Shown here: positions 4,158 to 28,566 of the stretch, one piece after another
Layout of the letters: every line of letters begins with the position of its first letter
Numbering within the stretch: position 1 is the stretch's first letter
Origin: a virus
Length of the DNA stretch: 44,236 nt
IMG/VR virus record: IMGVR_UViG_3300028536_000004
Location: 1-44,236 of that record
Reading direction: 5' to 3' (one strand)
Position numbers and translations under genes: made by a program
Notes under the pieces: model-generated
The model's database searches: none
What the model was told of the DNA's origin: nothing
Seen by the model: only the letters and a program-made list of their open reading frames with translations

Positions 4158-4168
4158 AGGTCATACTC
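4154..4168 (-). promoter_or_regulatory. Junction module (RBS + stop/start overlap)
   Basis: The minus strand reads GAGTATGACCTGTGA, giving the C-terminus EYDL and a GTGA overlap with the next gene. The Shine-Dalgarno match is reduced to GAG because the preceding base is C. Confidence 0.7.
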
Positions 4169-4459
4169 GATCGGGGCAATGATATCACCGTCAACGGCAT
4201 CGGAGAGCTTTTGCGCGCTCGCGGCGTATTTCGATAAATCATCCTTAAATGCTTCGGGAAACATTTTCGAGAGCCGACCGATCGGGAGCGGGCCAATCCA
4301 GCCATAAATCGGCCATTTGTGAGGCTTTTCGCTTGTTGGAAGAAGCCATTGGCCGCGCCAAGTTAAGATCACAGGCAAAGCCCACGACGGTTGTAGGTCA
4401 TTCTCGACAATGCACAGATACCGTCCGTCTGATTGAGGCGTACCTGAATTGAAATCCAT
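4154..4459 (-). CDS. Small hypothetical protein, 101 aa, paralogue of the next downstream gene
   Basis: The ATG at 4459 starts MDFNSGTPQSDGRYLCIVEN, which aligns with the next gene from its first residue; an upstream in-frame extension to 4495 overlaps the terminator and is unlikely. The shared features are GRYL, LTWRGQW, YGWIGPLP and the end APIEYDL. Relative to its paralogue it carries an extra helical stretch (MFPEAFKDDLSKYAASAQKL) before the common C-terminus. The function is unknown. It is the first gene after the hairpin at 4494-4521, so its mRNA may start by read-through. Confidence 0.8.
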   Translation of the reverse strand: MDFNSGTPQSDGRYLCIVENDLQPSWALPVILTWRGQWLLPTSEKPHKWPIYGWIGPLPIGRLSKMFPEAFKDDLSKYAASAQKLSDAVDGDIIAPIEYDL

Positions 4460-4493
4460 GTTAAAGATCCCGAGATGGTGGCAGGTTCGGTTC

Positions 4494-4521
4494 AAAAACT
4501 AGGACGACCGTTAAGCCGCCC
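4494..4521 (-). terminator. Probable rho-independent terminator after the DUF2815 gene
   Basis: On the minus strand GGGCGGC, a six-base loop TTAACG and GTCGTCC form a seven-pair stem with two G-U pairs. TAGTTTTTG follows. It sits nine bases beyond the DUF2815 stop codon, where an attenuating terminator would separate replication genes from the polymerase segment. Confidence 0.55.
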
Positions 4522-6897: not shown

Positions 6898-7596
6898 TTA
6901 CGCGGCGTATTCGATGCCGGCCTTTTTCTCCAAGGCCACTGCGAACGCTTCCCGCTCACTCGCTGGGATATTGCGCGAATGCACAGGCTCGCCGGCAGGA
7001 ACGAACTGCGTCACGAGTTCACGTACAGGCACGGGGTCGCCGAGCTTCGTCGCGGCTTGATTGGCGAGTTTCGATAAATCGGCATCGCTCCACGAACGCG
7101 TCGAGACCTTTGCAGCAGCGGCTTCGTCAACAGCGTCTGCGCCTTTGGCGGCCGCCATAAAGGCCGCAAATTCGTCGTCTTCCTCAATCGCCGGGGTAAC
7201 AGTCTGTTCGGCAACAGCTTCTGTGGCTTTCGATGCCGTTCCACTCTCCGACGTGCCAGTGCCATTTACCTTGGGAAAACCCGGCAAAGGGGCGGGACGG
7301 CTTGCACCAGGCTTCATACGCCATAGGCCGGCACCCGTCTTGGCCTTGGTCGATGCATGGAGTGACGCGGACCACGGATGGCCGTCGGCGTCGATTTCGC
7401 CGCTTGGAGCCTCCTCGACTACCTGCGTCTCAGGCTCGTCAACCCTTTCAGGTTCCACGGCTGCGGGCGGCGTTGTAGAGCGCTTCGCTTCGACTACGGT
7501 TGCAGCCGCGATAGCAGTCCCACCTAGTAGCGCGTAAACGCTCGTAAGCTGCGAAGGCTTCAACGTGAGCGAGATTGTGATATACTCTTCAATCAT
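6898..7596 (-). CDS. Hypothetical protein of the replication module, 232 aa
   Basis: The protein combines a hydrophobic N-terminus, a long Pro/Glu/Val-rich linker (about residues 40-70) and a conserved segment DADGHPWSASLHASTKAKTG then GLWRMKPG at about 68-98. That HASTKAKTxxGLWRMKPG segment is a recurring feature of phage proteins located next to DUF2815/DUF2800 genes, where no function is assigned. The rest is Ala-rich and ends in helices (ASEREAFAVALEKKAGIEY). The start overlaps the helicase stop by eight bases (ATGATTGA) with AAAGGAAAA upstream. It may be a scaffold or accessory factor of the replisome; this is a guess from position. Confidence 0.75.
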   Translation of the reverse strand: MIEEYITISLTLKPSQLTSVYALLGGTAIAAATVVEAKRSTTPPAAVEPERVDEPETQVVEEAPSGEIDADGHPWSASLHASTKAKTGAGLWRMKPGASRPAPLPGFPKVNGTGTSESGTASKATEAVAEQTVTPAIEEDDEFAAFMAAAKGADAVDEAAAAKVSTRSWSDADLSKLANQAATKLGDPVPVRELVTQFVPAGEPVHSRNIPASEREAFAVALEKKAGIEYAA

Positions 7597-9232
7597 GGTG
7601 CTTTTCCTTTTTGTCTAAAACGCGATAAATTGTATTCATTTTTTCCAAGGCCCGTACGAGAATTTTCTCGGCAATCGAGCCTGGAGCTGTGAAAACATCT
7701 GCGTTGACTAAATACTCTTGCCCTATTCTGTCTAGCCTAGCAACCGCTTGTTCGTTCCGGCTCGGTACCCAATCAGGTTCGCCCAGGCCGCATCTCGAAC
7801 TCACTGTCTGTAAGCCGTCTACACCTTCTCCACCCGACTGCATATTTGCGATAAATACGCGGACTTTGGGATTGCTGATAAATTCGTCGATTGCGGCTTG
7901 ACGCGCAAGCGGAGATTTTCCGCCATGGACGACAACTGTACCAAAATGCTTCAACCCCTCCTCGTATAATTTTAAGACGTTGAGATGCCACCCGAACAGA
8001 ACATATTTTTCGGAACTACCTTCCAGAAAATCTGAAACATATTCGATAATTTGAGGTGCCATGGCTTCGCCCATCAAACGTCGGGCTTCGGCTATATGCC
8101 CCAAAATTTCAAAATCTTTTGTCGTTTGGATTGTCTCAATATCCAAGCCGAGCATACCCTCGACGGCTAACGCGCTTTTGACGGCGCCATTTTCTTCCAC
8201 GCTCACGAGGGAATAACGTGGAGGCTTCATAGCATCGAGCACATCTTTTTTCTCGTGCCGCGCCATGACATTGGCACGCAGGCGATTTTGGAGTTCCAGT
8301 TCCAAACTCGTGCTTTCCAACTTGAATCGTTTGCCGTCGAGCGTTTTAAGATCCGCTTGCCGGTTGTACCGTTCCTTGAACCGAGCTTCATTTACAAAAT
8401 CGATAGACTCATGATCGAAATACCTGAAAAGATTATAGGCCTCTGACGGACGGTTCAAAAGAGGAGTACCTGTCAAAGCCAATGCCCGATCGCAATAGGT
8501 GCCGATAGCTGGCATTTTGATGTCGCCATGTTGATATTCACCGCGAGAATTTCCGAGGATAGCGCGCGTCGTCAAAGCCTCTTGGTTTTTCATCTTATGG
8601 GCTTCGTCGCAAACCAAGACATCCCAGCGCCCTCGTGCAATCGCTCGCATGATTGCCGGATTTCGAGCGGCTTCATAACTAATGACTTGATAATTGGCAG
8701 TCGGATGTATTCCATCTTTGACATTAAGCATGACGGATACAGATACTTTCGCAATTGTGCTCCATTCTTTGATACGTACACCCCATTGAATACGTACAGA
8801 TGCTGGAACAATTACGAGAGTTCGGGTTGCTTCTACTTCGTTGCAAAAGACAATAGCAACGATTGTCTTACCTAACCCGGGTTCATCTGCGTCGATCCCA
8901 CCATTTCGAGCAAGCAAATAATCCAGCGTCGCCCCTTGATAGTTCCAGATTTCTTTTCCAGGCGGCGTCTTATAATTACCTTTGCCAGATAATGCGCGGC
9001 TGGCATCGATAGCGCGCCTATATCCCCCAATGTGAGGATCATCAGGCGCTATCAGGTCCGCGATCGAGTAGGGATTGTCGGAAAACAGCACGGCCTTTTC
9101 AGGCGAGCTGGCGGATGTCGAGAATGTCAATCCTCGATACGCCATGAGTAATTTGATTTCGGTTTTTTGAGCTTTTGGAACCTCTAGAATATAATGTGTA
9201 CCTTCTGGCGTCGGATTAACCCACGCTTTCAT
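7589..9232 (-). CDS. SNF2-type DEAH-box ATPase/helicase
   Basis: The 547-residue superfamily 2 ATPase has motif I DEPGLGKTIVAI (GLGKT at about 119-123), motif II VCDEAHKMKN (DEAH at about 209-212) and motif III LALTGTPLLNRPSEA. The second RecA lobe has SGGEGVDGLQ and motif VI QAVARLDRIGQ. Length and order fit the compact SNF2/Rad54-like helicases of phages, proposed to remodel replication or recombination intermediates. The ATG at 9232 overlaps the upstream stop as ATGA within a junction module. The partners in the operon are the Cas4-like nuclease and the primase-polymerase. Confidence 0.93.
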   Translation of the reverse strand: MKAWVNPTPEGTHYILEVPKAQKTEIKLLMAYRGLTFSTSASSPEKAVLFSDNPYSIADLIAPDDPHIGGYRRAIDASRALSGKGNYKTPPGKEIWNYQGATLDYLLARNGGIDADEPGLGKTIVAIVFCNEVEATRTLVIVPASVRIQWGVRIKEWSTIAKVSVSVMLNVKDGIHPTANYQVISYEAARNPAIMRAIARGRWDVLVCDEAHKMKNQEALTTRAILGNSRGEYQHGDIKMPAIGTYCDRALALTGTPLLNRPSEAYNLFRYFDHESIDFVNEARFKERYNRQADLKTLDGKRFKLESTSLELELQNRLRANVMARHEKKDVLDAMKPPRYSLVSVEENGAVKSALAVEGMLGLDIETIQTTKDFEILGHIAEARRLMGEAMAPQIIEYVSDFLEGSSEKYVLFGWHLNVLKLYEEGLKHFGTVVVHGGKSPLARQAAIDEFISNPKVRVFIANMQSGGEGVDGLQTVSSRCGLGEPDWVPSRNEQAVARLDRIGQEYLVNADVFTAPGSIAEKILVRALEKMNTIYRVLDKKEKHHD

Positions 9233-9243
9233 AGGTCATACTC
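9229..9243 (-). promoter_or_regulatory. Junction module (RBS + stop/start overlap)
   Basis: The minus strand reads GAGTATGACCTATGA, encoding EYDL of the MerR-like protein and overlapping its stop with the helicase ATG. The base before GAG is A, so the Shine-Dalgarno match is AGAG only. Confidence 0.7.
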
Positions 9244-9582
9244 TGCGGTCTCAGCAGGCGCAGGGGGTATGAGGTTGGACGCTAGTCGAGCAGCCGCTTT
9301 CACTTGATCTTCGAGCCGAGAAAGCAATGCCTCGAAAACTTCGCGGTCGTATTTGTCTACCATCGTTTTTATGTCCGCGATGGACCATCCGCCAAATTGC
9401 GCGGCGGCAATGATGGAAGCTCGGTGGAGTTGATCATCGGTAAATCGACGAACGCCGCCTGGTGAACGCTCTACTTCGCCAAGCAATCCCTCGCTTTCCC
9501 AGAACCGCACACCGCGCCGACTTGTGCAGCCTGCCTGACACATGGCGTCCATTGAATGAGGTGTTAAAGGCTTCGTAACCAT
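9229..9582 (-). CDS. MerR-like helix-turn-helix protein, 117 aa
   Basis: The region AGCTSRRGVRFWESEGLLGE, then RSPGGVRRFTDDQ, has the helix-turn-helix and wing of MerR regulators: R-G-V-R-x-W-E-x-E-G-L-L in place of the usual R-x-Y-E-x-x-G-L-L. A dimerisation-type helix follows (WSIADIKTMVDKYDREVFEA). It probably binds DNA as a regulator of phage transcription; no effector-binding domain is present. It ends in TAEYDL. The ATG at 9582 overlaps the upstream stop (TGATG); a GTG at 9585 is also possible. AAGGA lies upstream. Confidence 0.85.
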   Translation of the reverse strand: MVTKPLTPHSMDAMCQAGCTSRRGVRFWESEGLLGEVERSPGGVRRFTDDQLHRASIIAAAQFGGWSIADIKTMVDKYDREVFEALLSRLEDQVKAAARLASNLIPPAPAETAEYDL

Positions 9583-10037
9583 CACGGAAATTCCTTCTCA
9601 AATTCCGCCTGCGTCCATCCGCGATAACGCCAGTGATGCAGCCGCTCGACAATCCAATAATGGTCGAGTTGACCGGTCTTAGGATTGCGGAAATTCAAAT
9701 CTTCGGAATCGCGATTATGCAACATAGGTAAACCCCCCATGTGCAATTCATTCTCTAAGCGTGACGGCGATCGTTGCGGCGTTGGGCGTTTTGCGATGCC
9801 GAATGTCACGGCTAGGGCAGGAAAGATGGGCGCCAGCTCCGCAGCCGTATAGAAAGGTCGCACTTGCCAATAGGGAAGCCATGCATTGATAGCCTTGGCC
9901 TCGGCCGTACCCGCATTATCCAACGCCCATGTCTGCACAAGAGCTTTCCATCGCAGGATGATCCCGGGTCGATTGCCTGTAGCTTTCATGAGCTTGATCA
10001 CTTGGAAAGTGTCGCTTAGCCAAAAATCAGCGGTCAT
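9582..10037 (-). CDS. Hypothetical protein, 151 aa
   Basis: I do not recognise this protein. It starts MTADFWLSDTFQVIKLMKAT and has a Pro/Trp-rich middle (INAWLPYWQVRPFYTAAELA) that looks like a DNA- or protein-binding helical domain. The C-terminus is aromatic-basic (DHYWIVERLHHWRYRGWTQA). The start overlaps the end of the upstream small gene by 11 bases. It lies between the primase-polymerase and MerR-like genes and is probably an early or replication accessory protein. Confidence 0.75.
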   Translation of the reverse strand: MTADFWLSDTFQVIKLMKATGNRPGIILRWKALVQTWALDNAGTAEAKAINAWLPYWQVRPFYTAAELAPIFPALAVTFGIAKRPTPQRSPSRLENELHMGGLPMLHNRDSEDLNFRNPKTGQLDHYWIVERLHHWRYRGWTQAEFEKEFP

Positions 10038-10239
10038 GAAGGTGTCCCGAATGTGTTAAAGGTATCTCTTCGGCAATACGTTGTGCGCGTAGCTTTTGTA
10101 TCCGCTCATTTTCCATCTGCGAACGGATATACCGCTCTAGCTTGACGGATTCGGCATCGGTCAACGCCCTTGTACGGGATAACGCATCAAGATATTTAAC
10201 GCGTTTATCAAGAGATTCAGGTGTCAGCCACGTACTCAC
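10027..10239 (-). CDS. Small helical hypothetical protein, 70 aa
   Basis: The protein is short, charged and helical (RVKYLDALSRTRALTDAESV, then KLERYIRSQ), without cysteines or membrane span. The start is GTG at 10239, overlapping the primase-polymerase stop as GTGA in a junction module with GGAG eight bases upstream. Strict coupling suggests it is made in proportion to the primase-polymerase, perhaps as an accessory subunit, but no family is recognised. Confidence 0.75.
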   Translation of the reverse strand: MSTWLTPESLDKRVKYLDALSRTRALTDAESVKLERYIRSQMENERIQKLRAQRIAEEIPLTHSGHLHDR

Positions 10240-10250
10240 AAGTCATACTC
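10236..10250 (-). promoter_or_regulatory. Junction module (RBS + stop/start overlap)
   Basis: The minus strand reads GAGTATGACTTGTGA, preceded by G, giving GGAG before the GTG start of the 70-residue gene. The same bases encode the EYDL end of the primase-polymerase. Confidence 0.75.
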
Positions 10251-12131
10251 CGATTTAGTAGGGATTTTCCACAAATTTTTGTTTGGCTTGAGCCAGATTA
10301 AATCCTCTTTTTTTGATAGGACGCGAGTAACTAGGCTGCGATCAATCGCGTGTTTGCCGGCAATCTCAGCGTATAATATCCCCGGTTGCGCTTCGCCTCC
10401 CAAGCTGGATAGCATTTCGACAACCTCTTTCGCCTCTGCCCAGCTATATTTTGATCTCATTGATTTTGCATCCTCACACGGTCCCTCTGCATCTTTCAGC
10501 AGCACAATCGAATTACCGATAGGCGTCACTTTAAGATATTGAATGTCGTCGGGCACGTCAGCATCTTTTTGCTTCTTGACGCGCAATTCTGTCCCATCCC
10601 GAACCTTTTTCGTATTAAGGGCTGTATCGACGTTTGCAATCCATGCAGACGAACCTCGGGCGCCGCGATTAGCATCCTTGCCCTCATGATGGACGAGCAG
10701 CACAAAGCACTCATAGTAACGAGCAAGTTGCTCTGCGAAATTTGTTACCTTCGTTGCATCTGTCGCACTATTCTCATCTAGGCCAGTTGCAAGCCGCGCG
10801 GTCGTGTCGATCACAATCAACGCCGGCTTGGCTTTCATGTCGCCTAAATCCTGTTTGATTTGCTCCCATTCCGCCGTGTCGGTAAAGAAAGGAACCCGAT
10901 CAAATATGATAAACCTATGATCGCTGCGAAATTCTATGTCATGTTGATCCATCCATGCCGGCCAGCGTTTCTTAGCTGTCGCAATTGATCCTTCGCCTGC
11001 AAAATATAGGACATCATTTTTTACAGGCGGCGCACCCCATTGTCCTGCAATCCCGAAGCCAAGGCATAATGCCCAATCGAGTGCTAGAAAACTTTTGTAG
11101 CTCCCTGATTGTCCGTAGAGCATCCCCGTTCCACTAGCGGGGAGCAAGCCGGGGATAAGCCATTCCGGATCATTGACACCATCGGCATATTCATGGATCC
11201 ACATAAGCCGATTGCGTGCTGATCGCTCGGCTTTAGGTGCGGTTAGCTCGGGCGTTTCCATGCCAATGAAATTAGCAAACGCATCTTCATTGGACTGATG
11301 ACCTTTTGCGCCGCTTTCCGCGTCTTCACCGTAGGACGCTGCATTGCGGACAAGGATTTCCAGATCCCATTCATCCCAAGCCGGTTGGCAGTGTGGGTTC
11401 CATTTCTCCCAAAGCAAATCAAAACACAGCCCCGGCGATATTCCTTTGTCCAATATGGATGTCGCTACTTGGAATGCGAGATTGTTCCCACCCTTGCCTT
11501 CAACTGAAACGCGACCGGATTTAACATAATTTTCTATCAGGTCATTCGCTGTTCGGATATTGCGAGGTAAATCTTTATCGGGATTTTTGGTAAGCCCAAA
11601 GGTGTCGGTTTTCTGTCTTTCAGGGATGATAGACCGAATGGCTTGGGGTAAGGGGTTGAGGTTTCCGCCCGGCAGTTCGCTATAGGCGCCAGCTTTTGTC
11701 TTGGAGCCGGGGAGCAAGACATAGCCGCCTGATTGGATCGATCCGTCAACGCGCTTGATACCTCCGCGCGTGTCAATACCTTCTGCGATGCGGGATGCAG
11801 TTGAAGGCCCTTCGCCTTTGAAATAGACGTGAAGGCCGCCACGCGGTGTCCGCACTTGATAAGCTTGATCGACGGCGGCTTTGACATCTGCATCACGTTC
11901 TAGCAGTGTCGTCCACCAGTCTAGGCCATTGGGGTCGACATCGATAACGAACAGGCCCGATGGACCTGTCGCGACAGCCCAATTGAAATCTGGGTTGATT
12001 TTAAGCCATGCTGCAATCTGTGCCGGGTCATTGCTGGCTTCATGCCACCCGCCTTTTGTGGCCGGCAGCTTATCCCCTGGAATGCACGGAAAGATATTGC
12101 AGCCGTCTAGAAAAGCTGGTAATGATTGCAT
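10236..12131 (-). CDS. Primase-polymerase / RepA-like helicase fusion
   Basis: The N-terminal third is a bifunctional primase-polymerase domain: FPCIPGDKLPATKGGWHEAS, the metal-binding VIDVDPNG and RTPRGGLHVYFKGEG. The second half is a RecA-type ATPase of the AAA_25/RepA group: GMLYGQSGSYKSFLALDWAL (Walker A), ALIVIDTTARLATG (Walker B) and LLVHHEGKDANRGARGSSAW. A winged-helix-like tail (YAEIAGKHAIDRSLVTRVLS) precedes the C-terminus KSEYDL. It should prime and unwind DNA for the phage polymerase. I chose the ATG at 12131, where the family normally begins; a GTG at 12158 lies within the upstream hairpin. The length (631 aa) is normal. Confidence 0.93.
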   Translation of the reverse strand: MQSLPAFLDGCNIFPCIPGDKLPATKGGWHEASNDPAQIAAWLKINPDFNWAVATGPSGLFVIDVDPNGLDWWTTLLERDADVKAAVDQAYQVRTPRGGLHVYFKGEGPSTASRIAEGIDTRGGIKRVDGSIQSGGYVLLPGSKTKAGAYSELPGGNLNPLPQAIRSIIPERQKTDTFGLTKNPDKDLPRNIRTANDLIENYVKSGRVSVEGKGGNNLAFQVATSILDKGISPGLCFDLLWEKWNPHCQPAWDEWDLEILVRNAASYGEDAESGAKGHQSNEDAFANFIGMETPELTAPKAERSARNRLMWIHEYADGVNDPEWLIPGLLPASGTGMLYGQSGSYKSFLALDWALCLGFGIAGQWGAPPVKNDVLYFAGEGSIATAKKRWPAWMDQHDIEFRSDHRFIIFDRVPFFTDTAEWEQIKQDLGDMKAKPALIVIDTTARLATGLDENSATDATKVTNFAEQLARYYECFVLLVHHEGKDANRGARGSSAWIANVDTALNTKKVRDGTELRVKKQKDADVPDDIQYLKVTPIGNSIVLLKDAEGPCEDAKSMRSKYSWAEAKEVVEMLSSLGGEAQPGILYAEIAGKHAIDRSLVTRVLSKKEDLIWLKPNKNLWKIPTKSEYDL

Positions 12132-12149
12132 CGCCGACCACGCTCCATG

Positions 12150-12190
12150 AACCCTCACTAGGCAGCCACCTAGTGAGGGTTTTGCTTATT
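12150..12190 (+). terminator. Strong 13-bp hairpin with T-rich tail on the plus strand
   Basis: AACCCTCACTAGG, loop CAGCCA and CCTAGTGAGGGTT form a perfect 13-pair stem. On the plus strand TTTTGCTTATTT follows, as in a terminator. The flanking genes are on the minus strand, where no T run follows, so it would stop antisense transcription. Alternatively it acts as an RNA hairpin in the leader of the primase-polymerase gene. Confidence 0.5.
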
Positions 12191-18643: not shown

Positions 18644-18985
18644 ATGAGCCAAGACTTGATTGTGCCGGACAGTCAAAAGGCTGTTTCCGCAATTAACAAG
18701 ATCCCTGTTATTTCGTCAGAAGCCTATGGACATCTGGGGAAATATGCCGGCGCTATCGTCTTGTCTGTGTTCGAACAAATAGGCGGCATAGAAAGATTTG
18801 CAGCTTGGTCGGATTCCAATCCATCTGACTATTATACTAAGATATTCGGCAAAGTCGTCCAGCGTTCGACGGCAGTGGAGCATAGTGGCACACTCACGAT
18901 CGACGACGCAATCACACGCCTTGAAAGCCAAGGGCAGATGTTCGATGCCGAGTTTGAGGATGTGACACCTCAATACGATCTCTAA
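18644..18985 (+). CDS. Conserved packaging-region protein, possible small terminase, 113 aa
   Basis: The central part SSEAYGHLGKYAGAIVLSVF then EQIGGIERFAAWSDSNPSDY and YTKIFGKVVQR is a pattern I have seen in proteins just upstream of phage large terminases, where a small terminase would be expected. I cannot confirm that function. The C-terminus EDVTPQYDL shares the YDL end with minus-arm proteins but is encoded by CAA TAC GAT CTC and has no ribosome-site role. The ATG at 18644 follows the previous stop by two bases. Confidence 0.75.
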   Translation: MSQDLIVPDSQKAVSAINKIPVISSEAYGHLGKYAGAIVLSVFEQIGGIERFAAWSDSNPSDYYTKIFGKVVQRSTAVEHSGTLTIDDAITRLESQGQMFDAEFEDVTPQYDL

Positions 18986-19000
18986 AGCAGCGGGTGAACC

Positions 19001-19276
19001 ATGATACCTCCAATCAGTCAATGGCGCGACATGAAGTCTGCGCCACGCAACGGTGAATGCATCCTTGTCGTGCACCGGGAATATAATCGCAAAGAGGGAC
19101 GTTTGCGTATCGCGACAGCGCAATGGCTCTGCAACGAACTCGGAGAAGAGTGGGGCTGGCGCTTGCCTTTTCGGACAGGTACGACGCAATATGCAGATGG
19201 ATGGCTCACCGTCGCTGAGCTCATGGCCTTCCAACAATCCGAGACACGGGCAAATGCGCCAGAGTTCGATCTTTAG
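19001..19276 (+). CDS. DUF551-like small protein, 91 aa
   Basis: The N-terminus ISQWRDMKSAPRNGECILVV resembles the W-x-x-x-x-x-A-P-x-x-G-x-x-I-L-V start of many short phage proteins (DUF551-like). A later segment EEWGWRLPFR and ADGW fit the same small beta fold. It ends ANAPEFDL, another member of the YDL-type ends, encoded by GAG TTC GAT CTT. GGGTGA lies before the ATG at 19001. The function is unknown. Confidence 0.72.
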   Translation: MIPPISQWRDMKSAPRNGECILVVHREYNRKEGRLRIATAQWLCNELGEEWGWRLPFRTGTTQYADGWLTVAELMAFQQSETRANAPEFDL

Positions 19277-19289
19277 ATTAGGGCATGGA

Positions 19290-19385
19290 ATGACAAATTT
19301 CTTTGTGGGCTTTTTCGTCGGTGCAGCTATCATGCTCATTATCTCACTCTTGCATCTCCTATTTTGGACAGGGGAAAATTCATGA
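19290..19385 (+). CDS. 31-residue membrane peptide
   Basis: MTNFFVGFFVGAAIMLIISL then LHLLFWTGENS is a single hydrophobic span with a short polar tail. AGGG lies about ten bases upstream of the ATG at 19290. The stop overlaps the next start as ATGA (19382). No family is recognised; the coupled position between two genes supports it. Confidence 0.6.
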   Translation: MTNFFVGFFVGAAIMLIISLLHLLFWTGENS

Positions 19386-19570
19386 CTCATGAAGAGAAAT
19401 ACAATGCGGACCTCGTTATCGCGGAAGAAATGGACGCAAAAGTTATTCTCGAAACTGCATGGCGTCGTGGATGGATTATGGTCCCAGCACAGAGTATGAA
19501 AGTATTTATACAAGGCGCAGAGACAGGTAATTGGCCTGCACTATATGATGCAGATGGGAAATTTTTATGA
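19382..19570 (+). CDS. Small hypothetical protein, 62 aa
   Basis: MTHEEKYNADLVIAEEMDAK leads into ILETAWRRGWIMVPAQSMKV, a mainly helical protein with a small beta end. GGGGAAA lies before the ATG at 19382, and both ends are coupled to neighbours by ATGA. The function is unknown. Confidence 0.7.
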   Translation: MTHEEKYNADLVIAEEMDAKVILETAWRRGWIMVPAQSMKVFIQGAETGNWPALYDADGKFL

Positions 19571-19824
19571 CGACGCCATCTAGAGACCGCAAGGATACCG
19601 CTGCAAAACTCGGGATCAAACTCCAAGCCGAGTATCGTGCGATGATCGATGCGACGGGCGAGAATGAAATTTCCAATGCCGCTATCCAACTCGGGATCAC
19701 GTTCAATTCCAACATCGAATTTATTTGCTGGGTGCTCAAAGAGTTTGGAGGGGTTGATCAAATGCCCCTTACGCGTGCTCGAAAGGCCGAACTGCCCAAG
19801 ACGCCTGCGATCTTGTTGAACTGA
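19567..19824 (+). CDS. Hypothetical protein upstream of terminase, 85 aa
   Basis: The protein MTTPSRDRKDTAAKLGIKLQ to AILLN is mixed, with a central acidic helix (YRAMIDATGENEISNAAIQL). Its position directly before the large terminase gene, whose ATG lies one base after this stop, would also fit a small terminase, as an alternative to the gene at 18644. No DNA-binding motif can be stated with confidence. Confidence 0.72.
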   Translation: MTTPSRDRKDTAAKLGIKLQAEYRAMIDATGENEISNAAIQLGITFNSNIEFICWVLKEFGGVDQMPLTRARKAELPKTPAILLN

Positions 19825-19825
19825 T

Positions 19826-21586
19826 ATGAACATCCAGCACATCGCGACAGTTGCAGGTGTTTCAGTTGACGAAGTGCGTTCGCGATGGATGACATTGCGC
19901 GTTGCGGAGTGGAAAGCAGATTTCCGCAAATTTGCCCGTGAAGCCCTCAAGATCAGATCCAAAGAAGGCGAACTAGTTCCTCTTATATTCAACGAAGCAC
20001 AAGAGATTTTACTGGCGCAAGCTGAAAAACAACTGGAAACCGAACGATGGGTCCGGCTAGTTGGCCTCAAAGGACGCCGCCAGGGCTTTTCTACAATGGT
20101 AGCTGCGCGCGGATATTGGAGGGCAACTCTAAACGAACGTCAGAAAATATACATTTTAAGCCATGAAATGTCCAGCTCACAGACACTGTTCGACATGGTG
20201 GATTTGATGCAACAGAAGCATCCATTCCCTCCGCAAGTCGGTGCAGATAACGCTAAAGAACTGGATTTCCCTAAGCGCGGATCCTCCTATACGGTTGCGA
20301 CAGCGGGCCAGAAAGCGGGAGGGCGCGGGGGCGGCACGAGTTTTTTTCACGGGTCGGAAGTTGCATGGTGGACAAGCGCAGACGATCATTTTTCCGCGTC
20401 TGTGCAGGCCGTGGACGAAGTGCGAGGCGTATGGGGTGAACTATGGAAGGAACCTGCTTACCCTTTACCCTTCGAGCGTGGACGAGGCACAATCATGGGA
20501 TGGGTGCGACCGCCATCTGAAGTATGGCTTGAAACAACGTCAGCCGGTCCAGTAGGTGCATTTTATCGACGCTATATGGATGCCGTGAAAGGTATTGGAC
20601 GTTATCGATCTGCATTCGTGCCTTGGGCTATCCAGAAAGAATATACCGAAGAGGGAGAATTTACACCTCAACTAGATGCAGAAGAGGAAGGTGAACTCTC
20701 CGAGGCTGAGTATCAGGAATTACATGGATTGAGCGACGGGCAGATGTTGTGGCGGCGCTCAAAGATCCATGAGCTCGGATCAATGGGTAAATTTCGACAA
20801 GAATTTCCTATCGATGTCACCGAAGCTTTCTCAGCAGCCGATATCGAAGATATATTCATCAAGCCGGCATTAGTACTGCGAGCGCGCAAACGCACCTTGG
20901 ATGATCCCGATGCTCCCTTGATTATTGGCGTCGATCCTGCAGGCGCAGGCGGGGATCGTTTCGCAGTCGCCTATCGACGCGGGGACAAGATACTCAAAGT
21001 CGAACATCGTAACAAATTGGAGCACGATGAGGCCGTAGCATGGCTTTCCTCTATTATTGACGAACATGATCCTTCGATGATGAATATAGATCGCGGAAGC
21101 ATGGGCCAGAACATCATTTCGTCTTTGCGCAATATCAAACCAAAATATCAAAGCGTCGTGCGCGGTGTCGATTTCGGCGGGAAGTCAAAATTCAAGATGG
21201 TAAATCCAACACGCGCTGGACCTTTTAACAAGCGCGCAGAGATTTATGGGAAATTTCGCGATTGGCTGACAGAAGGCGGCTGTATCCCCGACGATGATGA
21301 TATCGCCAGTGACCTCGCCGGCCCTAAGACGAAATGGCGTGCGAACAATGATTGGCTGCTCACGTCCAAAACCGACATGAAGGCGGCTGGTATTAGATCG
21401 AGCGATCTCTCGGACGCGTGCGCATTGACATTTGCTTTCGACGAATGGATTTCCTCATGGTCAAAGCCCCAGCCGACGAAAGGGTTTGGCGCAGGGGCGC
21501 CAGAGATGCTAAGAGGTATCGGGTCAGGTTGGGATATCCATTCAGACTATGATGAACCATCCGGCAGCCAAAGCTGGATGTCGTGA
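19826..21586 (+). CDS. Terminase large subunit
   Basis: The 586-residue packaging motor has an N-terminal ATPase domain with a Walker A variant VGLKGRRQGFST near residues 79-90 and a strand-DE region TSFFHGSEVAWW. The RNase H-type nuclease domain shows LIIGVDPAGAGGDRFAVAYR, MNIDRGSMG and RSSDLSDACALTFA, supplying the acidic metal ligands. It pumps DNA into the prohead through the portal and cuts it; with P22-like virion proteins a headful mechanism is likely, which fits a permuted genome. The start is ATG at 19826, coupled to the previous stop. Confidence 0.95.
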   Translation: MNIQHIATVAGVSVDEVRSRWMTLRVAEWKADFRKFAREALKIRSKEGELVPLIFNEAQEILLAQAEKQLETERWVRLVGLKGRRQGFSTMVAARGYWRATLNERQKIYILSHEMSSSQTLFDMVDLMQQKHPFPPQVGADNAKELDFPKRGSSYTVATAGQKAGGRGGGTSFFHGSEVAWWTSADDHFSASVQAVDEVRGVWGELWKEPAYPLPFERGRGTIMGWVRPPSEVWLETTSAGPVGAFYRRYMDAVKGIGRYRSAFVPWAIQKEYTEEGEFTPQLDAEEEGELSEAEYQELHGLSDGQMLWRRSKIHELGSMGKFRQEFPIDVTEAFSAADIEDIFIKPALVLRARKRTLDDPDAPLIIGVDPAGAGGDRFAVAYRRGDKILKVEHRNKLEHDEAVAWLSSIIDEHDPSMMNIDRGSMGQNIISSLRNIKPKYQSVVRGVDFGGKSKFKMVNPTRAGPFNKRAEIYGKFRDWLTEGGCIPDDDDIASDLAGPKTKWRANNDWLLTSKTDMKAAGIRSSDLSDACALTFAFDEWISSWSKPQPTKGFGAGAPEMLRGIGSGWDIHSDYDEPSGSQSWMS

Positions 21587-21613
21587 TTCAATTGCCTATG
21601 GGGGCGACTTAAC

Positions 21614-23782
21614 ATGGCCGGCCTAAGAGATTCGATTGCCGAAGAAAATAAGCCACAAAAAAAGCCTATCAAGGTTCCAAAAGGCTTCGATGATATTTCA
21701 TCATTTTTGGCCGATCTTCGCCAAAAATATGAATATGGTTACGGGTTCAACGAACATAATACCATCGCGGGCAAGGATGATGCGCGTTTCCTGATCGGCA
21801 ATCAATGGGATTCGACCGTTGAGCAGAAGCGCAAAGATGAGCGCAAACCTGTCCTGACATTCAATCGCCTCGTGGCTTTCCTCGCCCAGATCATCGGCGA
21901 TCGTTTGATGAACGAAACGGAAATCCGCTGTCTCCCCGATAAAGGCGGTACGAAGGAAATCGCGGAAATCCGGGAAGGATTGATCCGCTCGATTTTCAAA
22001 AACTCCAATGCTGATTTTGCCCGAGACGAGGCTTTCAAATATCAGGTTATCGGAGGCCAAGGCGCCTATACGCTGACGATCGATTACACGAACGATGACG
22101 TATTCGAACAGGAAATGCGGCTAGGCGCGATCTATGATCCCTACTCCGCCGTGTTCGACCCTCTCGCTATCGATCCCTCGGCTGGCGACGGCCAGTTCGC
22201 CTTTGTCGGCGAAGATATTCCGCAACAGGAGTTCAAGTCGCGCTGGCCTTGGGCGGCAGAAACATCCTTCATGGATGACAAACTATGGAACCGCAGCGGC
22301 TTCTGGCTGACAGAGGATACTGTTCGAATAGTATCCTATTGGCGAATGGTGACAGAAGGTTACAAGACATTAGTTCTCTATAAAGACGGGACGGTCCATG
22401 ATGTCACGGACAAAGAAGAATATGAATACATCCAATATGCTGAAACCTATTCGGACGGTTCTATTTACGAACGCTCTGTCCCGAAGCGTTTCGCGAGGCT
22501 CTATATTTGTTCTGGTAATGATATTCTCGAAGGCCCTTATGATTATCCTTTTAGCTCTATTCCCGTTTACAGGGTTCCCGGCTGGGAGGTTAATGACGGC
22601 GCCAAGGTCCACCGTTGGGGGCTCATACGATTCCTCAAAGATCCGCAGCGCCTCCATAACTATTGGCGCTCCACCGTCGCCGAGCAGCTTGTCGCCGCAC
22701 CGCGCAATAAGTGGCTAGCGACGCCGGATGCGGTAAAAGGACACGAGCGCAAATGGCGTAATTCGCCGACGTCAAATGACCCGTTTCTCTACTATAACGA
22801 CGGAGAGCAGCCGCCAACCCATATTCCGCCTCCCGGTATCGACGCCGCTCTTATCAACGAAGCTGGCGGCACGGCGCAGGATATGAAGGATATCTCCAAT
22901 CTGCATGAAGCGGCTTTGGGAATGCCTTCGAATGAAGTATCGGGCGTCGCAATTCAGCAAAGGAATATGGTAGCCGACGTCGGCACTTATATTTATACCG
23001 ATCGACTGCGTATTGCCGATGAACGCTGCGCCAAGAATATCAATGAAGCTATTCCGTTTTTGTACGACACACAACGTACGATTACGGTTCAAGGCTCCGA
23101 TGATAAAGTCCAAGTCGCCGTTATTAATGATCCAAGCGACCCTAATTCAGACGTGACTGTCGGGAAGTACAATATCACTGTCGCGGTTGGTCCTGCGTCC
23201 ATGACGAAACGGACGCTTGCAGCCGAGCAGATGATGGCCTTCGTCAACGCAGCGCCTGAGGTTGCAGGACAGGTCATGGATCTCGTGGCGGAAGCCCAAG
23301 ATTGGCCGGCTGCGGATAAATTTGCTCAGCGCTTCAAGATGATGCTGCCTCCAGGCATGATCCCACCTGATGAACTAACACCGGAAATGATCCAGATGCA
23401 GCAGCAAAATCAACAGAACCAAATGCAACAGCAGCAGGCGGCACTCGCTGAGCTGCAGACGAAATTGGCGCTACAGGCGGCTAAGACGGCAGAGGCGCAA
23501 TCTCGGGCTCATCTGTCCGTGGCCCAAGCGTACAAGGCCATTCTTGACGCCCATTCGCGGCAAGATGATGTGTCCAGCAAGACAGACGAGCGCGGTTTAA
23601 AAGCTGCACTCGATCTAATCGGACAACACAACGACCTAGAAGGCCAAGACCGTGACTTTGGCCTGCAGGCAATTTCAACCCTTCACGGCATGAGCGTGGC
23701 GCAACAGGGCGCGGATAATGCGGATGCGGCGGTTCAATCAGGAGCAGCCGCGCCGACAGACGACAATGGAGACAATCAATGA
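21614..23782 (+). CDS. Portal protein, P22-like
   Basis: The 722-residue protein has the features of the P22-like portal family: DARFLIGNQWD near the N-terminus, KPVLTFNRLVAFLAQIIGDR, and DPLAIDPSAGDGQFAFVGED. The C-terminal barrel-like region is rich in Gln and helices (MIQMQQQNQQNQMQQQQAAL). Twelve copies form the ring through which DNA enters and leaves the capsid. GGGG lies upstream of the ATG at 21614. It overlaps the scaffold gene by four bases. Confidence 0.95.
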   Translation: MAGLRDSIAEENKPQKKPIKVPKGFDDISSFLADLRQKYEYGYGFNEHNTIAGKDDARFLIGNQWDSTVEQKRKDERKPVLTFNRLVAFLAQIIGDRLMNETEIRCLPDKGGTKEIAEIREGLIRSIFKNSNADFARDEAFKYQVIGGQGAYTLTIDYTNDDVFEQEMRLGAIYDPYSAVFDPLAIDPSAGDGQFAFVGEDIPQQEFKSRWPWAAETSFMDDKLWNRSGFWLTEDTVRIVSYWRMVTEGYKTLVLYKDGTVHDVTDKEEYEYIQYAETYSDGSIYERSVPKRFARLYICSGNDILEGPYDYPFSSIPVYRVPGWEVNDGAKVHRWGLIRFLKDPQRLHNYWRSTVAEQLVAAPRNKWLATPDAVKGHERKWRNSPTSNDPFLYYNDGEQPPTHIPPPGIDAALINEAGGTAQDMKDISNLHEAALGMPSNEVSGVAIQQRNMVADVGTYIYTDRLRIADERCAKNINEAIPFLYDTQRTITVQGSDDKVQVAVINDPSDPNSDVTVGKYNITVAVGPASMTKRTLAAEQMMAFVNAAPEVAGQVMDLVAEAQDWPAADKFAQRFKMMLPPGMIPPDELTPEMIQMQQQNQQNQMQQQQAALAELQTKLALQAAKTAEAQSRAHLSVAQAYKAILDAHSRQDDVSSKTDERGLKAALDLIGQHNDLEGQDRDFGLQAISTLHGMSVAQQGADNADAAVQSGAAAPTDDNGDNQ

Positions 23783-24798
23783 CTATGGCGGGAAACGACG
23801 GGGAAAACGCAGATTTTGCGGAATTTGAAGCCTTGGGCGATGTCGAGGTAGGAGATAGTAATACTGCCCCTAAAGCGAAAGAAGCCCAAAAAGGCGCTGA
23901 GAAACCGGCAAAAGAAGCGCCTGAATCCAACAAGGATGGAACCGAAACCAAAGATGATGTTCGGTTTCGTCCAGCGCGCGAGGATACGGAAACCCCGGGA
24001 GAAACCGAAGAAACCGGCGAAAATGACGAGGATACGGAAACCGCGAAAAAGCGCCAGCCGCCTTCCGAACGCATCCGAGAATTAAACAAAAGACTTCGCC
24101 AGTCCGAGCGTTTGCGTGTCGCTGACGCAGAACGTTTGGACCGCCTTGAAGCCGCGTTGAAAAATAATGGTGGACAGGGAAATAATGGGAGTGGTAACAC
24201 TGGCGATATAGGGGTTGCGCCGGATCCGCAGGATCAGACAAAATACCCTCTCGGGCACCTCGACGACCGTTATATCGAGGATAAGCTGGAATGGCTCGCC
24301 GAAACCAAGGCAGCCAAGAAAGCCGATGCGGTCCTGCAACGTCAGCAGGAACACGAGCGTAACGGTCAAATCGAAAATCAACAGCGTGAATTGCTAACGA
24401 AGGTCGATGATCTCGCCTCGCGAGGTTCGGAAATCTACGACGACTATCAGGAACTGGTAGTTGATGCAGGAATGCGCGGCGATTGGGAATTGACTCACAC
24501 TACGTTCGAAGCGGCTGCAGAAGCAGAGCACGGCGAACGCATATTGTACGCACTGGCGAATGATCCGAAGGAAGCAAAACGCGTCAGCGAGCTTTCTCCC
24601 TTTCAACAGCTCCGGTACGTCGATCAGCAAAACGCCGAAATCTCTGCCAAGATCAAGCCGCGAACTAAGCCGGGAGCTACGCCGCCTGCTCAAACCCGAA
24701 CACGCGGTGGAAATTCCAGCACGCGAATTAGCCCTTCCACGGACAATCTCGACGATTTCGAGAAAGCCTGGGAGGCAGAAGGCAAGGGCAAGCGTTAA
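23779..24798 (+). CDS. Capsid scaffolding protein
   Basis: The 339-residue protein is strongly charged: an acidic N-terminus, Lys/Glu/Pro-rich stretches (PKAKEAQKGAEKPAKEAPES) and a coiled-coil region (RIRELNKRLRQSERLRVADA). A basic Ser/Thr-rich segment follows and the end is EKAWEAEGKGKR. Composition, size and location between portal and coat genes identify a scaffold that guides procapsid assembly and is then released. The start is ATG at 23779 (MTMAG), overlapping the portal stop; the ATG at 23785 is an alternative. Confidence 0.88.
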   Translation: MTMAGNDGENADFAEFEALGDVEVGDSNTAPKAKEAQKGAEKPAKEAPESNKDGTETKDDVRFRPAREDTETPGETEETGENDEDTETAKKRQPPSERIRELNKRLRQSERLRVADAERLDRLEAALKNNGGQGNNGSGNTGDIGVAPDPQDQTKYPLGHLDDRYIEDKLEWLAETKAAKKADAVLQRQQEHERNGQIENQQRELLTKVDDLASRGSEIYDDYQELVVDAGMRGDWELTHTTFEAAAEAEHGERILYALANDPKEAKRVSELSPFQQLRYVDQQNAEISAKIKPRTKPGATPPAQTRTRGGNSSTRISPSTDNLDDFEKAWEAEGKGKR

Positions 24799-24852
24799 TT
24801 GTGCCGAGAGGGGGATCCCGACCGGCTTTCTTGAGCGAGAAGGGATCTCCCG

Positions 24853-26169
24853 ATGGGTACCGTAACAGTAGAACAACAGAAGCTCGTTCTGAATGCCTTT
24901 GCGATGGTATTGCAGAACAATCTCGTCACAGCCGATGTCGTTACTTGGAATGAGTATGACGGCGAGATGGACGATCGCAACGGCCTGCAGGTACTTGAGC
25001 AGGTAACGCCGCGCTACAACATCACGCGCACGACCAATGGCGTCAAAGATCTCACGGCCGGCACGGACGGCACGGTTTTTGGCTCCGAGCTGTTCGCAGT
25101 GACGGGCACGTTCAATGCCAACATGGGTTGGGGCGATTTCGTCAAAATTCAGTCGATCGGCGATGCTCGCGAGAGCAAAGCGCTTTTGGGCGCCGCTACG
25201 TCAATGGCCGAAAAGATCGATGCCTATGTACTCGGCATCGCAACTTTGGCGTCGAACAACTGGACTGGCACGCCGGGCAACTCGATCGCAGCGTGGACGG
25301 ACGCAGTTGCAGGTTACACGCGCCTCAAGGAAGAAGGGGTGGACGATAATGATCTATCCTACGTCCTGAACTATACCGACAAACAGCTTCTGGGCGCTCA
25401 GGTTGTCGGGCTACCGGGCGCTACGCCCATGCCTTCGACGGCGTTTCGCCAAGGCTTTTCGGGTGAACTCAACGGCATCAGGACGTTGTTTACGCAGCAG
25501 CTTCCGGTCATTGCTACGGGTAGTCGTCCCGCGACCACGGTCGCTATCAACGGCGCAGCGCAGAACGTCGATTACGCGACCGTAGCCAAAGCAGGATCGA
25601 CAAACGGCCTACGTCTGACGCAGAATCTCATTGTTGATGCGATGGGTGCGGCGGCGACGGCGGCGGTCGGCGATGTTTTCACGATCGCCAATGTGTTTGC
25701 GTACGACAATCGCAAGCAGGCTCTTGTCAATCCAGCTCGATTGCAGCAGTTCACCGTCGTTACGGCGGCAACGGCTGATGGTGCAGGGAATGCCACGCTT
25801 CGGATTTTCCCGGCAATGATTGTTCCGGGTTCGGGTGCAGGCGATAATATCAATATCAATACCGCCCATGCGACCGTGAATGTCGCAGCAGCGGACAACG
25901 CTCTTCTGACATTCGTAGGCGCGGCAAGCACGCAATATGGCCCACGCTTGGTCATTCAGAAGGAAGCAATCGTCGTCAACACGGTGCCGCTCATCCTTCC
26001 GGCTTCTGACACCTCCATGCGCCGCAAACTGTCCAAGATCCCGCTGACTGTTCGTATGTGGCAGCACAGCGATTTCTACACCGGCCAGCATGGTGTCCGG
26101 TTCGACGTTGCACTTGACGCTAACATCCGCGAGCGTCGCCGCCTGACGCGCGTTAACGGTGGCCCGTAA
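24853..26169 (+). CDS. Major capsid protein, P22 coat-like
   Basis: The 438-residue protein follows the scaffold gene and has the P22 gp5-like pattern. The N-terminus is helical (EQQKLVLNAFAMVLQNNLVT), followed by a beta-rich interior and a telokin-like variable part around residues 220-340, and it ends FDVALDANIRERRRLTRVNG. It would form the HK97-fold shell. AAGGGAT lies upstream of the ATG at 24853. The family call rests on order, size and general pattern. Confidence 0.9.
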   Translation: MGTVTVEQQKLVLNAFAMVLQNNLVTADVVTWNEYDGEMDDRNGLQVLEQVTPRYNITRTTNGVKDLTAGTDGTVFGSELFAVTGTFNANMGWGDFVKIQSIGDARESKALLGAATSMAEKIDAYVLGIATLASNNWTGTPGNSIAAWTDAVAGYTRLKEEGVDDNDLSYVLNYTDKQLLGAQVVGLPGATPMPSTAFRQGFSGELNGIRTLFTQQLPVIATGSRPATTVAINGAAQNVDYATVAKAGSTNGLRLTQNLIVDAMGAAATAAVGDVFTIANVFAYDNRKQALVNPARLQQFTVVTAATADGAGNATLRIFPAMIVPGSGAGDNININTAHATVNVAAADNALLTFVGAASTQYGPRLVIQKEAIVVNTVPLILPASDTSMRRKLSKIPLTVRMWQHSDFYTGQHGVRFDVALDANIRERRRLTRVNGGP

Positions 26170-26186
26170 TCTTAAAAGGATACCAA

Positions 26187-26471
26187 ATGTTTTTGCCTAC
26201 TATTTCCTCGCTTACGATATCGCCGGCAACTGGGCCGGTTTCGGGAACGCTTTCTTTAAGTGGGATTAACCGAAACAATTCAGTAGTTCGAGTAGAATCA
26301 ATAAAAAGTGCCCGTGTTACATTAAGTTTTCGAGGAAGTGGGGTATCTTTAGATGTTAATGCGGAAGGCGCAGAAATATTCCGCATTCCAGTAGCCGCTA
26401 CGGATATCGATCTTTATGTCTCCGGGCCTTATACTGCGATCGGAAGTATATCAGTAGGCGAAAATGTCTGA
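26187..26471 (+). CDS. Small beta-rich protein, possible capsid decoration, 94 aa
   Basis: The protein reads as one Ig-like beta sandwich: LTISPATGPVSGTLSLSGIN, VVRVESIKSARVTLSFRGSG and DIDLYVSGPY. There is no cysteine or membrane span. AAAGGA lies before the ATG at 26187. Its place directly after the coat gene suggests a capsid surface decoration protein. The synonymous base use is more AT-rich than that of the coat gene, so it may be a late acquisition. Confidence 0.7.
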   Translation: MFLPTISSLTISPATGPVSGTLSLSGINRNNSVVRVESIKSARVTLSFRGSGVSLDVNAEGAEIFRIPVAATDIDLYVSGPYTAIGSISVGENV

Positions 26472-26528
26472 ACAAGGTCGCGTTAGCCTAGTCTCCGGGC
26501 GATGATGCGCGATAGGGCTCACTCGATT

Positions 26529-26543
26529 CACCCGCGTCGGGTG
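26529..26543. other. Short GC hairpin between decoration-like genes
   Basis: CACCCG, loop CGT and CGGGTG form a six-pair stem in the 106-base gap at 26472-26577, followed by GGCCCTTAATTC. The T content after it is low, so termination would be partial at best. It might help make an excess of coat mRNA over downstream genes. Confidence 0.4.
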
Positions 26544-26577
26544 GGCCCTTAATTCTTAGCCGGGACGGGAATTTCCG

Positions 26578-28329
26578 ATGGCTATCAATCCGGCTGTAAG
26601 TCAATATTTCACTCGGGCTTTCTGGCAAAATCCAGCCGTTGTCGATGTCGATATCAAGCAAGCAAACCCAAATGACAACAGCACAGTCGGCAAAGCGCTC
26701 GGTGTTTGGATTTTGGGCAATACCGCAGCGGGTGGCGGGAGTGCCGCCTCAATCGCGGATGGTGCAGATGTAGCCGAAGGCGCAACGACAGCGACGGCAT
26801 ATTCTGACACGACAGGTGCAGCGGCAGGAACTGTCGTCGGCTTGCTCAAAGGTTGGTACAAGCTGCTGGCGAACATGTTTCGCTTCAATGGTTATGGCAG
26901 TCTTATTGTCAGCACAGACGCCACAACGTCTTTCACGGATTCCTTTGATGGAGGCGTCGTAGACGTTACAAACACTTGGACGACGCAAGCCGTAACCGGT
27001 ACAGTGACACAAGCGGCGGGTAAGCTCACGCTTTCGTCCAGCACAACGGCATCAGCTTATGCGGCGATCTTTTCAAAAAACGCATTCCCGCCATCGTCTG
27101 TCTCTCCGCAGATACTCGGGTTCACGATACAGCTTGAATCACCAGTATTGCCAAACCTACGCAGATTTTGGGGTATGGGGACAGTTCCAGCGACGCCCAC
27201 GACGGCTATTCCCATCACTGACGGCTTTGGCTTCGAATTAACGGAAGCTGGTGTATTTCGAGCGGTTATTTACGCATCAAGCACAGTTGTTGCCTCGGCC
27301 AACTTGACGGCACCTGCAGATGCAAATCCTCATAATTACGGGCTATTATTCCGCGCAGATAGTTTCTTTTTCTATGTCGATAACTATACGACGCCTGTTG
27401 CGGTCATACCTTTTGTACAACCTAACCAAGTCACACTGCCTGTAGCGCTTGTATCGGTTAATGGAGCTACGCCGCCTGCAGCCGGACAGTCGTTCATTCT
27501 ATCTGTAGTTGCTTTGGGTGACTTCGGCAAAAATACCAATCAGATCTCAGATGGACTCTTTCCATGGCGTAAAGCCACTGTGAAGCCGGCTTCAACTGCA
27601 GCTTTGGCGACGGATTTGCCTCTTGTTGTTGCGCTTTCACCCAACAATGGCCTTACAGGCATGACACCGGGCGTATCAGCGACAGCCTTGGGTAAAGCGG
27701 AAGATGCAGTTTCGGCCTCGGGAGATACTGGTGTTTTCTGCCTGAATGTCAGACGCGATACGCTCACGGTTTCAGCCTCGGCAAATGGCGACTATAATGA
27801 AACTGCTGTCGATCAATATGGCTCGATGCAGGTTCGAAGCTATGAAAAACAGGCTCGGACTTATTCCGCTTCGGCTAATATCACGCTTGCAGCAGCGGCG
27901 ACGGATATCGCAATTCTCCCCGGCAGCGCCACTACGACTGTATACGTAACGAAAATCACAATTTCGGGTATTCAGACGACAGGCGGCGAAGCGGATGTTG
28001 TTTTGATTAAGCGAAGTGCCGCTAATACTGTCGGCACGTCCACCGCAATGACCGTGATCCCTCATGATGCCAATGACGCTGCAGGAACTGCTGCACCTTT
28101 GTCGTATACAGCTAATCCGACACCGGGCGCTGCAGTTGGCAATGTCCGACGCGCTTATGTCCCTGTCGGAGCTACAACGGGTTCGGGATCACCAGTGATA
28201 TTTGATTTTGGGGATAAAGGACGCCCCATCATCCTGCGTGGCATTGCTCAAGGTTTGGCAATTAATCTTAATGGTGCCACACTCACAGGAGGTGTGCTAG
28301 ACGTGTCTTTTGAATGGTTTGAAATCTAG
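26578..28329 (+). CDS. Large beta-rich head or head-fibre protein, 583 aa
   Basis: The N-terminus (MAINPAVSQYFTRAFWQNPA, then DIKQANPNDNSTVGKALGVW) is followed by a lectin-like domain at about 115-310 (TSFTDSFDGGVVDVTNTWTT ... FGFELTEAGVFRAVIYAS). Further beta domains follow (TVYVTKITISGIQTTGGEAD, ending SFEWFEI). The gene sits between the decoration-like gene and the gp4-like gene, so a capsid fibre or decoration protein is more likely than a tail fibre. GACGGGAA lies upstream of the ATG at 26578. No direct homologue is recognised. Confidence 0.78.
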   Translation: MAINPAVSQYFTRAFWQNPAVVDVDIKQANPNDNSTVGKALGVWILGNTAAGGGSAASIADGADVAEGATTATAYSDTTGAAAGTVVGLLKGWYKLLANMFRFNGYGSLIVSTDATTSFTDSFDGGVVDVTNTWTTQAVTGTVTQAAGKLTLSSSTTASAYAAIFSKNAFPPSSVSPQILGFTIQLESPVLPNLRRFWGMGTVPATPTTAIPITDGFGFELTEAGVFRAVIYASSTVVASANLTAPADANPHNYGLLFRADSFFFYVDNYTTPVAVIPFVQPNQVTLPVALVSVNGATPPAAGQSFILSVVALGDFGKNTNQISDGLFPWRKATVKPASTAALATDLPLVVALSPNNGLTGMTPGVSATALGKAEDAVSASGDTGVFCLNVRRDTLTVSASANGDYNETAVDQYGSMQVRSYEKQARTYSASANITLAAAATDIAILPGSATTTVYVTKITISGIQTTGGEADVVLIKRSAANTVGTSTAMTVIPHDANDAAGTAAPLSYTANPTPGAAVGNVRRAYVPVGATTGSGSPVIFDFGDKGRPIILRGIAQGLAINLNGATLTGGVLDVSFEWFEI

Positions 28330-28338
28330 GAGGCGAAT

Positions 28339-28566
28339 ATGGATTATACACATCAGCATTGGCCGGCGTATCGCTATGGTCCTGATGGTGCAGCCGAGAT
28401 TTTCGAGCAGGAATCAGACGTACCGGCAGGCTGGACGGATCATCCCTCCAAGGTCGGCGAAGCAAAACCCGCTCCAAAACTTGCGCCGGCTCTAAAGGTT
28501 GCTGAGGATGTTCCTCTGGCCAAAAAGCGCGGCAGGCCAGCTAAGAAAGCTGCACTCGACCTATAA
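28339..28566 (+). CDS. Small protein with AT-hook-like end, 75 aa
   Basis: MDYTHQHWPAYRYGPDGAAE then FEQESDVPAGWTDHPSKVGE is a pattern I have seen in short proteins placed before the gp4-like gene of P22-like phages. The C-terminal segment KKRGRPAKKAALDL contains an AT-hook core (RGRP) that could bind DNA minor grooves, and ends in LDL. AGGAGG lies six bases before the ATG at 28339, the best ribosome-binding site in the window. The role is unknown. Confidence 0.82.
   Translation: MDYTHQHWPAYRYGPDGAAEIFEQESDVPAGWTDHPSKVGEAKPAPKLAPALKVAEDVPLAKKRGRPAKKAALDL

Follow-up and report, generated by a model that had tools for sequence, protein, structure and literature searches.

Why should otherwise unrelated proteins of one phage end in the same three residues? 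This question is raised by IMG/VR virus record IMGVR_UViG_3300028536_000004, whose full 44,236 nucleotides (the window) form a near-complete, podovirus-like phage genome of 44 kb. A first-pass annotation had pointed to the protein ends VTPQYDL, NAPEFDL, KAALDL and KIELDL, all four of which are found in place, and had reckoned with about eight proteins ending in [EQA][YFL]DL as bearers of a possible C-terminal tag. Eight such proteins were counted, in seven families because the 3945 and 4154 genes are paralogues. The conservation, codon diversity and strictly terminal position of the ending, together with its absence outside one clade of phages, strongly support the proposed protein tag, whose core is [YFLHW]DL with a free carboxylate. 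The tagged proteins of the window (lengths in amino acids, aa) are as follows.

18644..18985, plus strand: 113-aa protein ending VTPQYDL; tag codons 18974-18982, CAATACGATCTC then TAA
19001..19276, plus strand: 91-aa protein ending NAPEFDL; tag codons 19265-19273, GAGTTCGATCTT then TAG
28339..28566, plus strand: 75-aa structural-region protein ending KAALDL; tag codons 28555-28563, GCACTCGACCTA then TAA
13564..14121, minus strand: 185-aa protein ending KIELDL; tag codons 13567-13575, GAGCTTGATTTA then TAG
10236..12158, minus strand: Prim-Pol/AAA primase-helicase (Pfam PF09250 and PF13481) ending KSEYDL; tag codons 10239-10247
9229..9585, minus strand: MerR-like regulator (an orthologue matches PF13411) ending TAEYDL; tag codons 9232-9240
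4154..4495, minus strand: small protein ending PIEYDL; tag codons 4157-4165
3945..4157, minus strand: small paralogous protein ending PVEYDL; tag codons 3948-3956

The four EYDL genes (stops at 3945, 4154, 9229 and 10236, all on the minus strand) overlap the next start by RTGA, and the 18644, 19001, 28339 and 13564 genes end 15 to about 90 bases from the next start, with no overlap. The gene for the terminase large subunit follows the 18644 gene at a distance of a few genes. The 13564-14121 protein, which has no family match, is possibly DNA-binding as judged by eye.

The ending is far more frequent among relatives of this phage than composition predicts. Among 1198 distinct C-termini, taken from genes called with a purpose-made, heuristic gene finder based on codon usage, DL was observed at 223 ends against about 6 expected from internal dipeptides. 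The first-pass annotation had proposed enrichment in relatives as a check on the tag, and it proved strong: 121 proteins end in YDL (0.11 expected), 58 in FDL (0.26) and 31 in LDL (0.44), so that about one sixth of clade proteins carry a [YFL]DL end. The motif is also fixed in position, with [YF]DL standing at the very end of 176 proteins and at none of the offsets 1-11 before it. A scan of stops in all frames, which is independent of the gene calls, found [YF]DL before 236 stops, compared with 5-8 for each of [YF]DF, [YF]DV, [YF]EL and [YF]NL. The enrichment and the stop counts reject chance or composition as the cause. As the sequences of relatives are not independent, the number of families (about 40 clusters with the tag) is a safer measure than the number of proteins.

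The use of different codons, already noted in the window, extends across the clade: 219 tags are written by 70 different 9-base sequences, and selection therefore acts on the protein. GAT and GAC are used at nearly 50:50, each of the six Leu codons and of the three stops is represented, and within families the first residue of the tag switches among Tyr, Phe, Leu and His. In alignments of the 18644 family and of the primase-helicase, the linker between the folded domain and the tag varies in length while the tag stays terminal, and the residues directly preceding it are rich in Pro, Lys, Gln and Glu.

Translational coupling, which the first-pass annotation had held unable to explain these ends, accounts for one part of them. 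Of all tagged genes, 99 (about 45%) have an RTGA overlap with the next start; residue -4 is Glu in 85 of them (86%), and GGAG or GGAA bases occur at 80 of the 99 junctions. With the next start at a distance of 10-60 bases, Glu occupies -4 in only 16 of 61 tagged genes (26%). The Glu before the tag is therefore mostly a Shine-Dalgarno GAG overlay at overlapping starts and lies outside the core. Away from such starts, residue -4 is a mixture of Glu, Gln, Pro, Thr, Ala and Lys, with Gln common only in the 18644 family. The core behaves differently, since only 3 of 188 untagged RTGA junctions have Asp at -2, and orthologues retain the tag with TAA, TAG or TGA and at gaps of 15-55 bases to the next gene. 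Coupling as the sole cause is thus rejected for [YFLHW]DL and accepted for the preceding Glu; of the pattern first described, terminal [YFL]DL stands and [EQA] falls away.

Had homologues lost the ending, the idea of a tag would have suffered; instead, families keep it across relatives. Tallies were made over 13 near-complete genomes, each with 5-12 tagged genes, and a second set over clustered relatives. The tag is present in all 13 genomes on the primase-helicase (26/28 overall; L068 and L073, both tagless relatives, lack it), on the 18644 family (19/19 members overall), on the 13564 family (19/20 overall, mostly LDL and with residue -4 free) and on the 28339 family (mostly LDL). It is carried by 12/12 members of the MerR-like 9229 family, 19/20 of the 3945/4154 family (40/41 overall), 7/7 of a 66-aa family and 5/5 of the 19001 family, and nearly all remaining core families are never tagged. 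Sporadic tags occur on C5- and Dam-type methyltransferases, on an HNH/AP2 endonuclease, on 1 of 31 exonucleases and on 3 of 20 members of a portal cluster, the latter on three contigs. In L041 a 65-aa duplicated helicase fragment is tagged as well: at 6673-7256 (plus strand) this duplicate of the helicase N-terminus carries a new tag, QPLQEFDL, and is followed by a 129-aa tagged open reading frame (ORF) and then by the full helicase. Unrelated accessory proteins have thus acquired the tag. Many of the tagged proteins of nameable type act on DNA.

The distribution of the tag is that of a clade. In each of two deeper members, G021 and G022, 13 ORFs are tagged. Zero tags were found in the relatives G001, G002 and G026, despite a common polymerase, exonuclease, helicase and primase-helicase, and zero in seven reference phages (among them phages of Sphingobium, Brevundimonas and Sinorhizobium); among primase relatives further removed, the tag is almost absent. 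The window phage itself has a minus-strand replication arm, with a family A DNA polymerase, an exonuclease, an Enc34/gp2.5-like single-stranded DNA (ssDNA)-binding protein, a helicase and the primase-helicase, and a plus-strand packaging and structural arm with terminase, P22-like portal and scaffold. No near match to it was found among cultured phages, and uncultured viral contigs supply many relatives, at about 66-74% protein identity. The only match in a bacterial genome is a contig in an Erythrobacter metagenome-assembled genome (MAG), and the host is therefore perhaps, on this weak evidence, a member of Sphingomonadales; probing 60 genomes of the MAG's family returned, besides the match in this MAG, a single weak one. 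In a sample of 333 proteins covering part of the Erythrobacter MAG, no tag was seen, and a host-wide motif is rejected on this count, with the host assignment itself weak.

What, then, does the ending do? We favour, at a probability of roughly 0.55, a docking signal in the last three residues, through which 5-13 proteins of each phage, otherwise unrelated, would meet at one common partner. The features of a docking motif are all observed: selection at the level of residues and protein, a strict and fixed C-terminal position, and unrelated carriers, with clade-wide conservation fixed by family and gain by unrelated proteins. [YFLHW]-D-L with its free carboxylate would be a short linear motif on a flexible linker in which Pro, Lys, Gln and Glu abound, and its partner would most likely be a hub located at the DNA or the replisome of the phage, encoded by phage or host, with the winged-helix protein at 9582-10037 as a candidate. 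At RTGA overlaps, the GAG codon before the motif would double as the Shine-Dalgarno sequence, hence the usual Glu. Action in trans through a common partner is inferred with the precedent of the phage T4 tails described below, and that partner would be a single protein located at phage DNA. Several points weigh against this interpretation. Candidates for the partner come from co-occurrence only; many tagged proteins are small and without assigned function, so that the DNA hub is an extrapolation from the carriers with a recognisable role; two families favour LDL over [YF]DL, a preference not necessarily accounted for by a single pocket; and the tagged clade is one for which no cultured member was found. 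A more elaborate version, tentative and possible rather than probable, is a phage-encoded address system, in which a three-residue C-terminal code on about one sixth of the proteins would be gained by new genes and read by a dedicated protein (possibly 9582-10037) gathering carriers at a phage-specific site.

The closest precedent is phage T4, in which gp43, gp55 and gp33 carry interchangeable short hydrophobic/acidic C-termini that act on the sliding clamp, the gp55 tail being joined by a linker that is divergent and differs in length (PMC2988020). As in T4, terminal hydrophobic/acidic ends are common to functionally different phage proteins. The T4 tail, however, is found on three proteins binding their own clamp and still works at an internal position in a fusion, whereas the tag comprises three residues only, on 5-13 proteins per genome, and is seen only at the end. 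No sliding clamp gene was recognised among the families searched, many core proteins being unidentified.

The bacterial SSB tip (DDDIPF) and the tails of T7 gp2.5 and gp4 are likewise terminal acidic-hydrophobic peptides on flexible linkers that dock replication partners. The tag resembles the SSB tip in these respects; the tip has one or two carriers and many readers, and the tag has many carriers. An SSB tip is, moreover, a terminal Pro-Phe after an acidic stretch, and the tag ends in DL and is preceded by Pro, Lys, Gln or Glu, not mainly by acidic residues. The phage's own ssDNA-binding protein (4530-5240, minus strand) ends in EEEPAF rather than in the tag, and its relatives end in DDDDIAF, DEIPF or EPAW; these ends themselves resemble the SSB tip. 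As a very short terminal address on unrelated carriers, the tag also recalls PTS1 SKL, KDEL, ssrA LAA and encapsulin cargo peptides. We know of no phage-encoded equivalent of such C-terminal sorting or degradation tags, and literature searches for a shared C-terminal phage tag of this kind found nothing.

Among the other explanations, degradation ranks above virion loading, and loading above an effect on termination. A C-terminal degradation or stability signal, recognised by a protease or adaptor of the host and controlling how long regulators and replication proteins persist, is in our view doubtful. C-terminal degrons are strictly terminal, hydrophobic at the end and found on unrelated proteins, all of which is likewise true of the tag, and the carriers do include regulators and the primase; the tag is, however, unlike ssrA-type LAA ends. 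C-terminal residues broadly influence bacterial protein levels, as one published study indicates (PMC7246954). Rapid destruction would nevertheless be hard to understand for a tag fixed on the primase-helicase and present on some portals and methyltransferases, and the complete lack of tags among the proteins sampled from the candidate host genome speaks against a host degron. The carriers could instead be loaded into the procapsid through the scaffold or capsid protein and ejected at infection. In favour of this, the structural region invariably contains a tagged protein and a second is encoded shortly upstream of terminase; three contigs have tagged portals; and scaffold, capsid and portal genes occur in all tagged complete genomes and were undetected in tagless ones. 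It is harder to see why methyltransferases, an HNH nuclease or a duplicated helicase fragment should travel as cargo, and we consider loading unlikely.

Slightly less likely still is an action in cis, in which nascent [YF]DL at the stop codon would adjust how the ribosome terminates and restarts at the next gene. Termination can depend on the final residues of the nascent chain, and the share of tagged genes with RTGA overlaps fits this idea, but the tag tracks the protein family rather than the junction, is kept with any stop and across the gaps given above, and is missing from the 188 untagged overlaps. The first-pass annotation had considered a beta-clamp-like pocket, and the tag could be a truncated clamp-binding motif of the QL[SD]LF or QLxLxL kind: the hydrophobic-Asp-Leu pattern is shared, and terminal LDL resembles the second half of hexapeptide clamp motifs. 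Such motifs are centred on glutamine and need not be terminal, whereas the tag is found at none of the 11 positions before the end and, after correction for the Shine-Dalgarno effect, has no conserved Gln at -4, -5 or -6. This reading is not supported, and we regard it as very improbable. Least credible is a DNA or RNA junction motif, a Shine-Dalgarno sequence with a conserved spacer that happens to encode EYDL. In its favour, GGAGTATGA occurs out of frame at some methyltransferase ends, and AGGAGTATGACTT also precedes the gene at 3141-3479, being encoded there only by an 11-codon ORF.

3476..3511, minus strand: 11-codon ORF MTVVDSQEYDL, fitting exactly between two genes, its TGA overlapping the next ATG
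3141..3479, minus strand: protein ending SKEYDR, as read from the sequence

The short ORF may be a minimal tagged peptide or a ribosome-binding region only, and SKEYDR is possibly a decayed tag. As the sole origin, however, a junction motif is rejected by codon diversity: the 9-base sequences differ, third codon positions are free, and Tyr, Phe and Leu codons exchange with the residue pattern kept.

If docking is the function and the reader is phage-encoded, its gene should accompany the tag, found in genomes that have it and missing from those that lack it. This criterion leaves two families in the replication arm, although co-occurrence cannot separate a reader from other clade-specific genes.

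9582..10037, minus strand: untagged 151-aa stand-alone winged-helix protein, candidate partner by co-occurrence
6898..7596, minus strand: untagged 232-aa protein, its model showing flexible linkers and a helical C-terminal domain; second candidate partner by co-occurrence

The 9582 family occurs in every tagged near-complete genome and in no complete tagless one. Its structure is predicted at high confidence (predicted local distance difference test, pLDDT, 93), and its best neighbours in fold include the C-terminal regions of the NrS-1 and African swine fever virus (ASFV) PrimPols, at modest Z scores (best 5.6, for NrS-1; VIA-align). Foldseek with this model gave no significant match, and a sequence search with the 9582 and 6898 proteins against solved structures gave none. 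In tagless phages, DUF3854/DUF5906 primase-helicases (L296 8075-10360 and L297 1039-3204, both plus strand) have a 9582-type winged-helix domain as their C-terminus; in the tagged clade this domain is a protein of its own, whose gene lies shortly downstream of that for the tagged primase-helicase. This fusion and split suggest that the 9582 protein may be tied to the primase-helicase through its tail. The 6898 family is found in every tagged near-complete genome and in no tagless one. In relatives, the 6898-7596 (minus strand) and 28339-28566 (plus strand) families have a common module, DAxGWPWSADLHASTKxKTKxGLWRMKxGxxRP; one of these families ends in the tag and the other in EFAG. The RuvC-like Holliday-junction resolvase at 41065 is an unlikely reader, as it is present in the tagless loci L071, L119 and L125.

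Two further observations concern carriers and neighbours in relatives. The 3' end of the C5-methyltransferase gene has two overlapping open frames, ..NPxHSRWLM.LP.EW..CAPTxT.., with a YDL end in 9/9 contigs, and ..LRAYGNALD.., with one in 4/9, which suggests overlapping genes or a programmed frameshift.

L032 about 100-300, L034 about 5100-5260 and L035 about 1230-1402, plus strand: two-frame C5-methyltransferase ends
L054 about 8720-8891, L061 about 6420-6591, and L064, L067, L072 and L256, plus strand: two-frame C5-methyltransferase ends

The helicase gene of L069 (10001-12448, plus strand) has an intein-like in-frame insert of about 870 bases, with Cys as first residue and HNC at its end, which holds another long open frame.

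To our knowledge, a terminal tripeptide common to unrelated phage proteins on this scale has not previously been described, and it points to an undescribed docking or sorting signal. The tag is a first functional clue for many small phage proteins without a known role and a ready handle for finding their partner; the reader, if found, could become a tool for directing proteins. For these phages, the tag suggests that a signal of three residues, which accessory genes can acquire, can wire much of a phage proteome.

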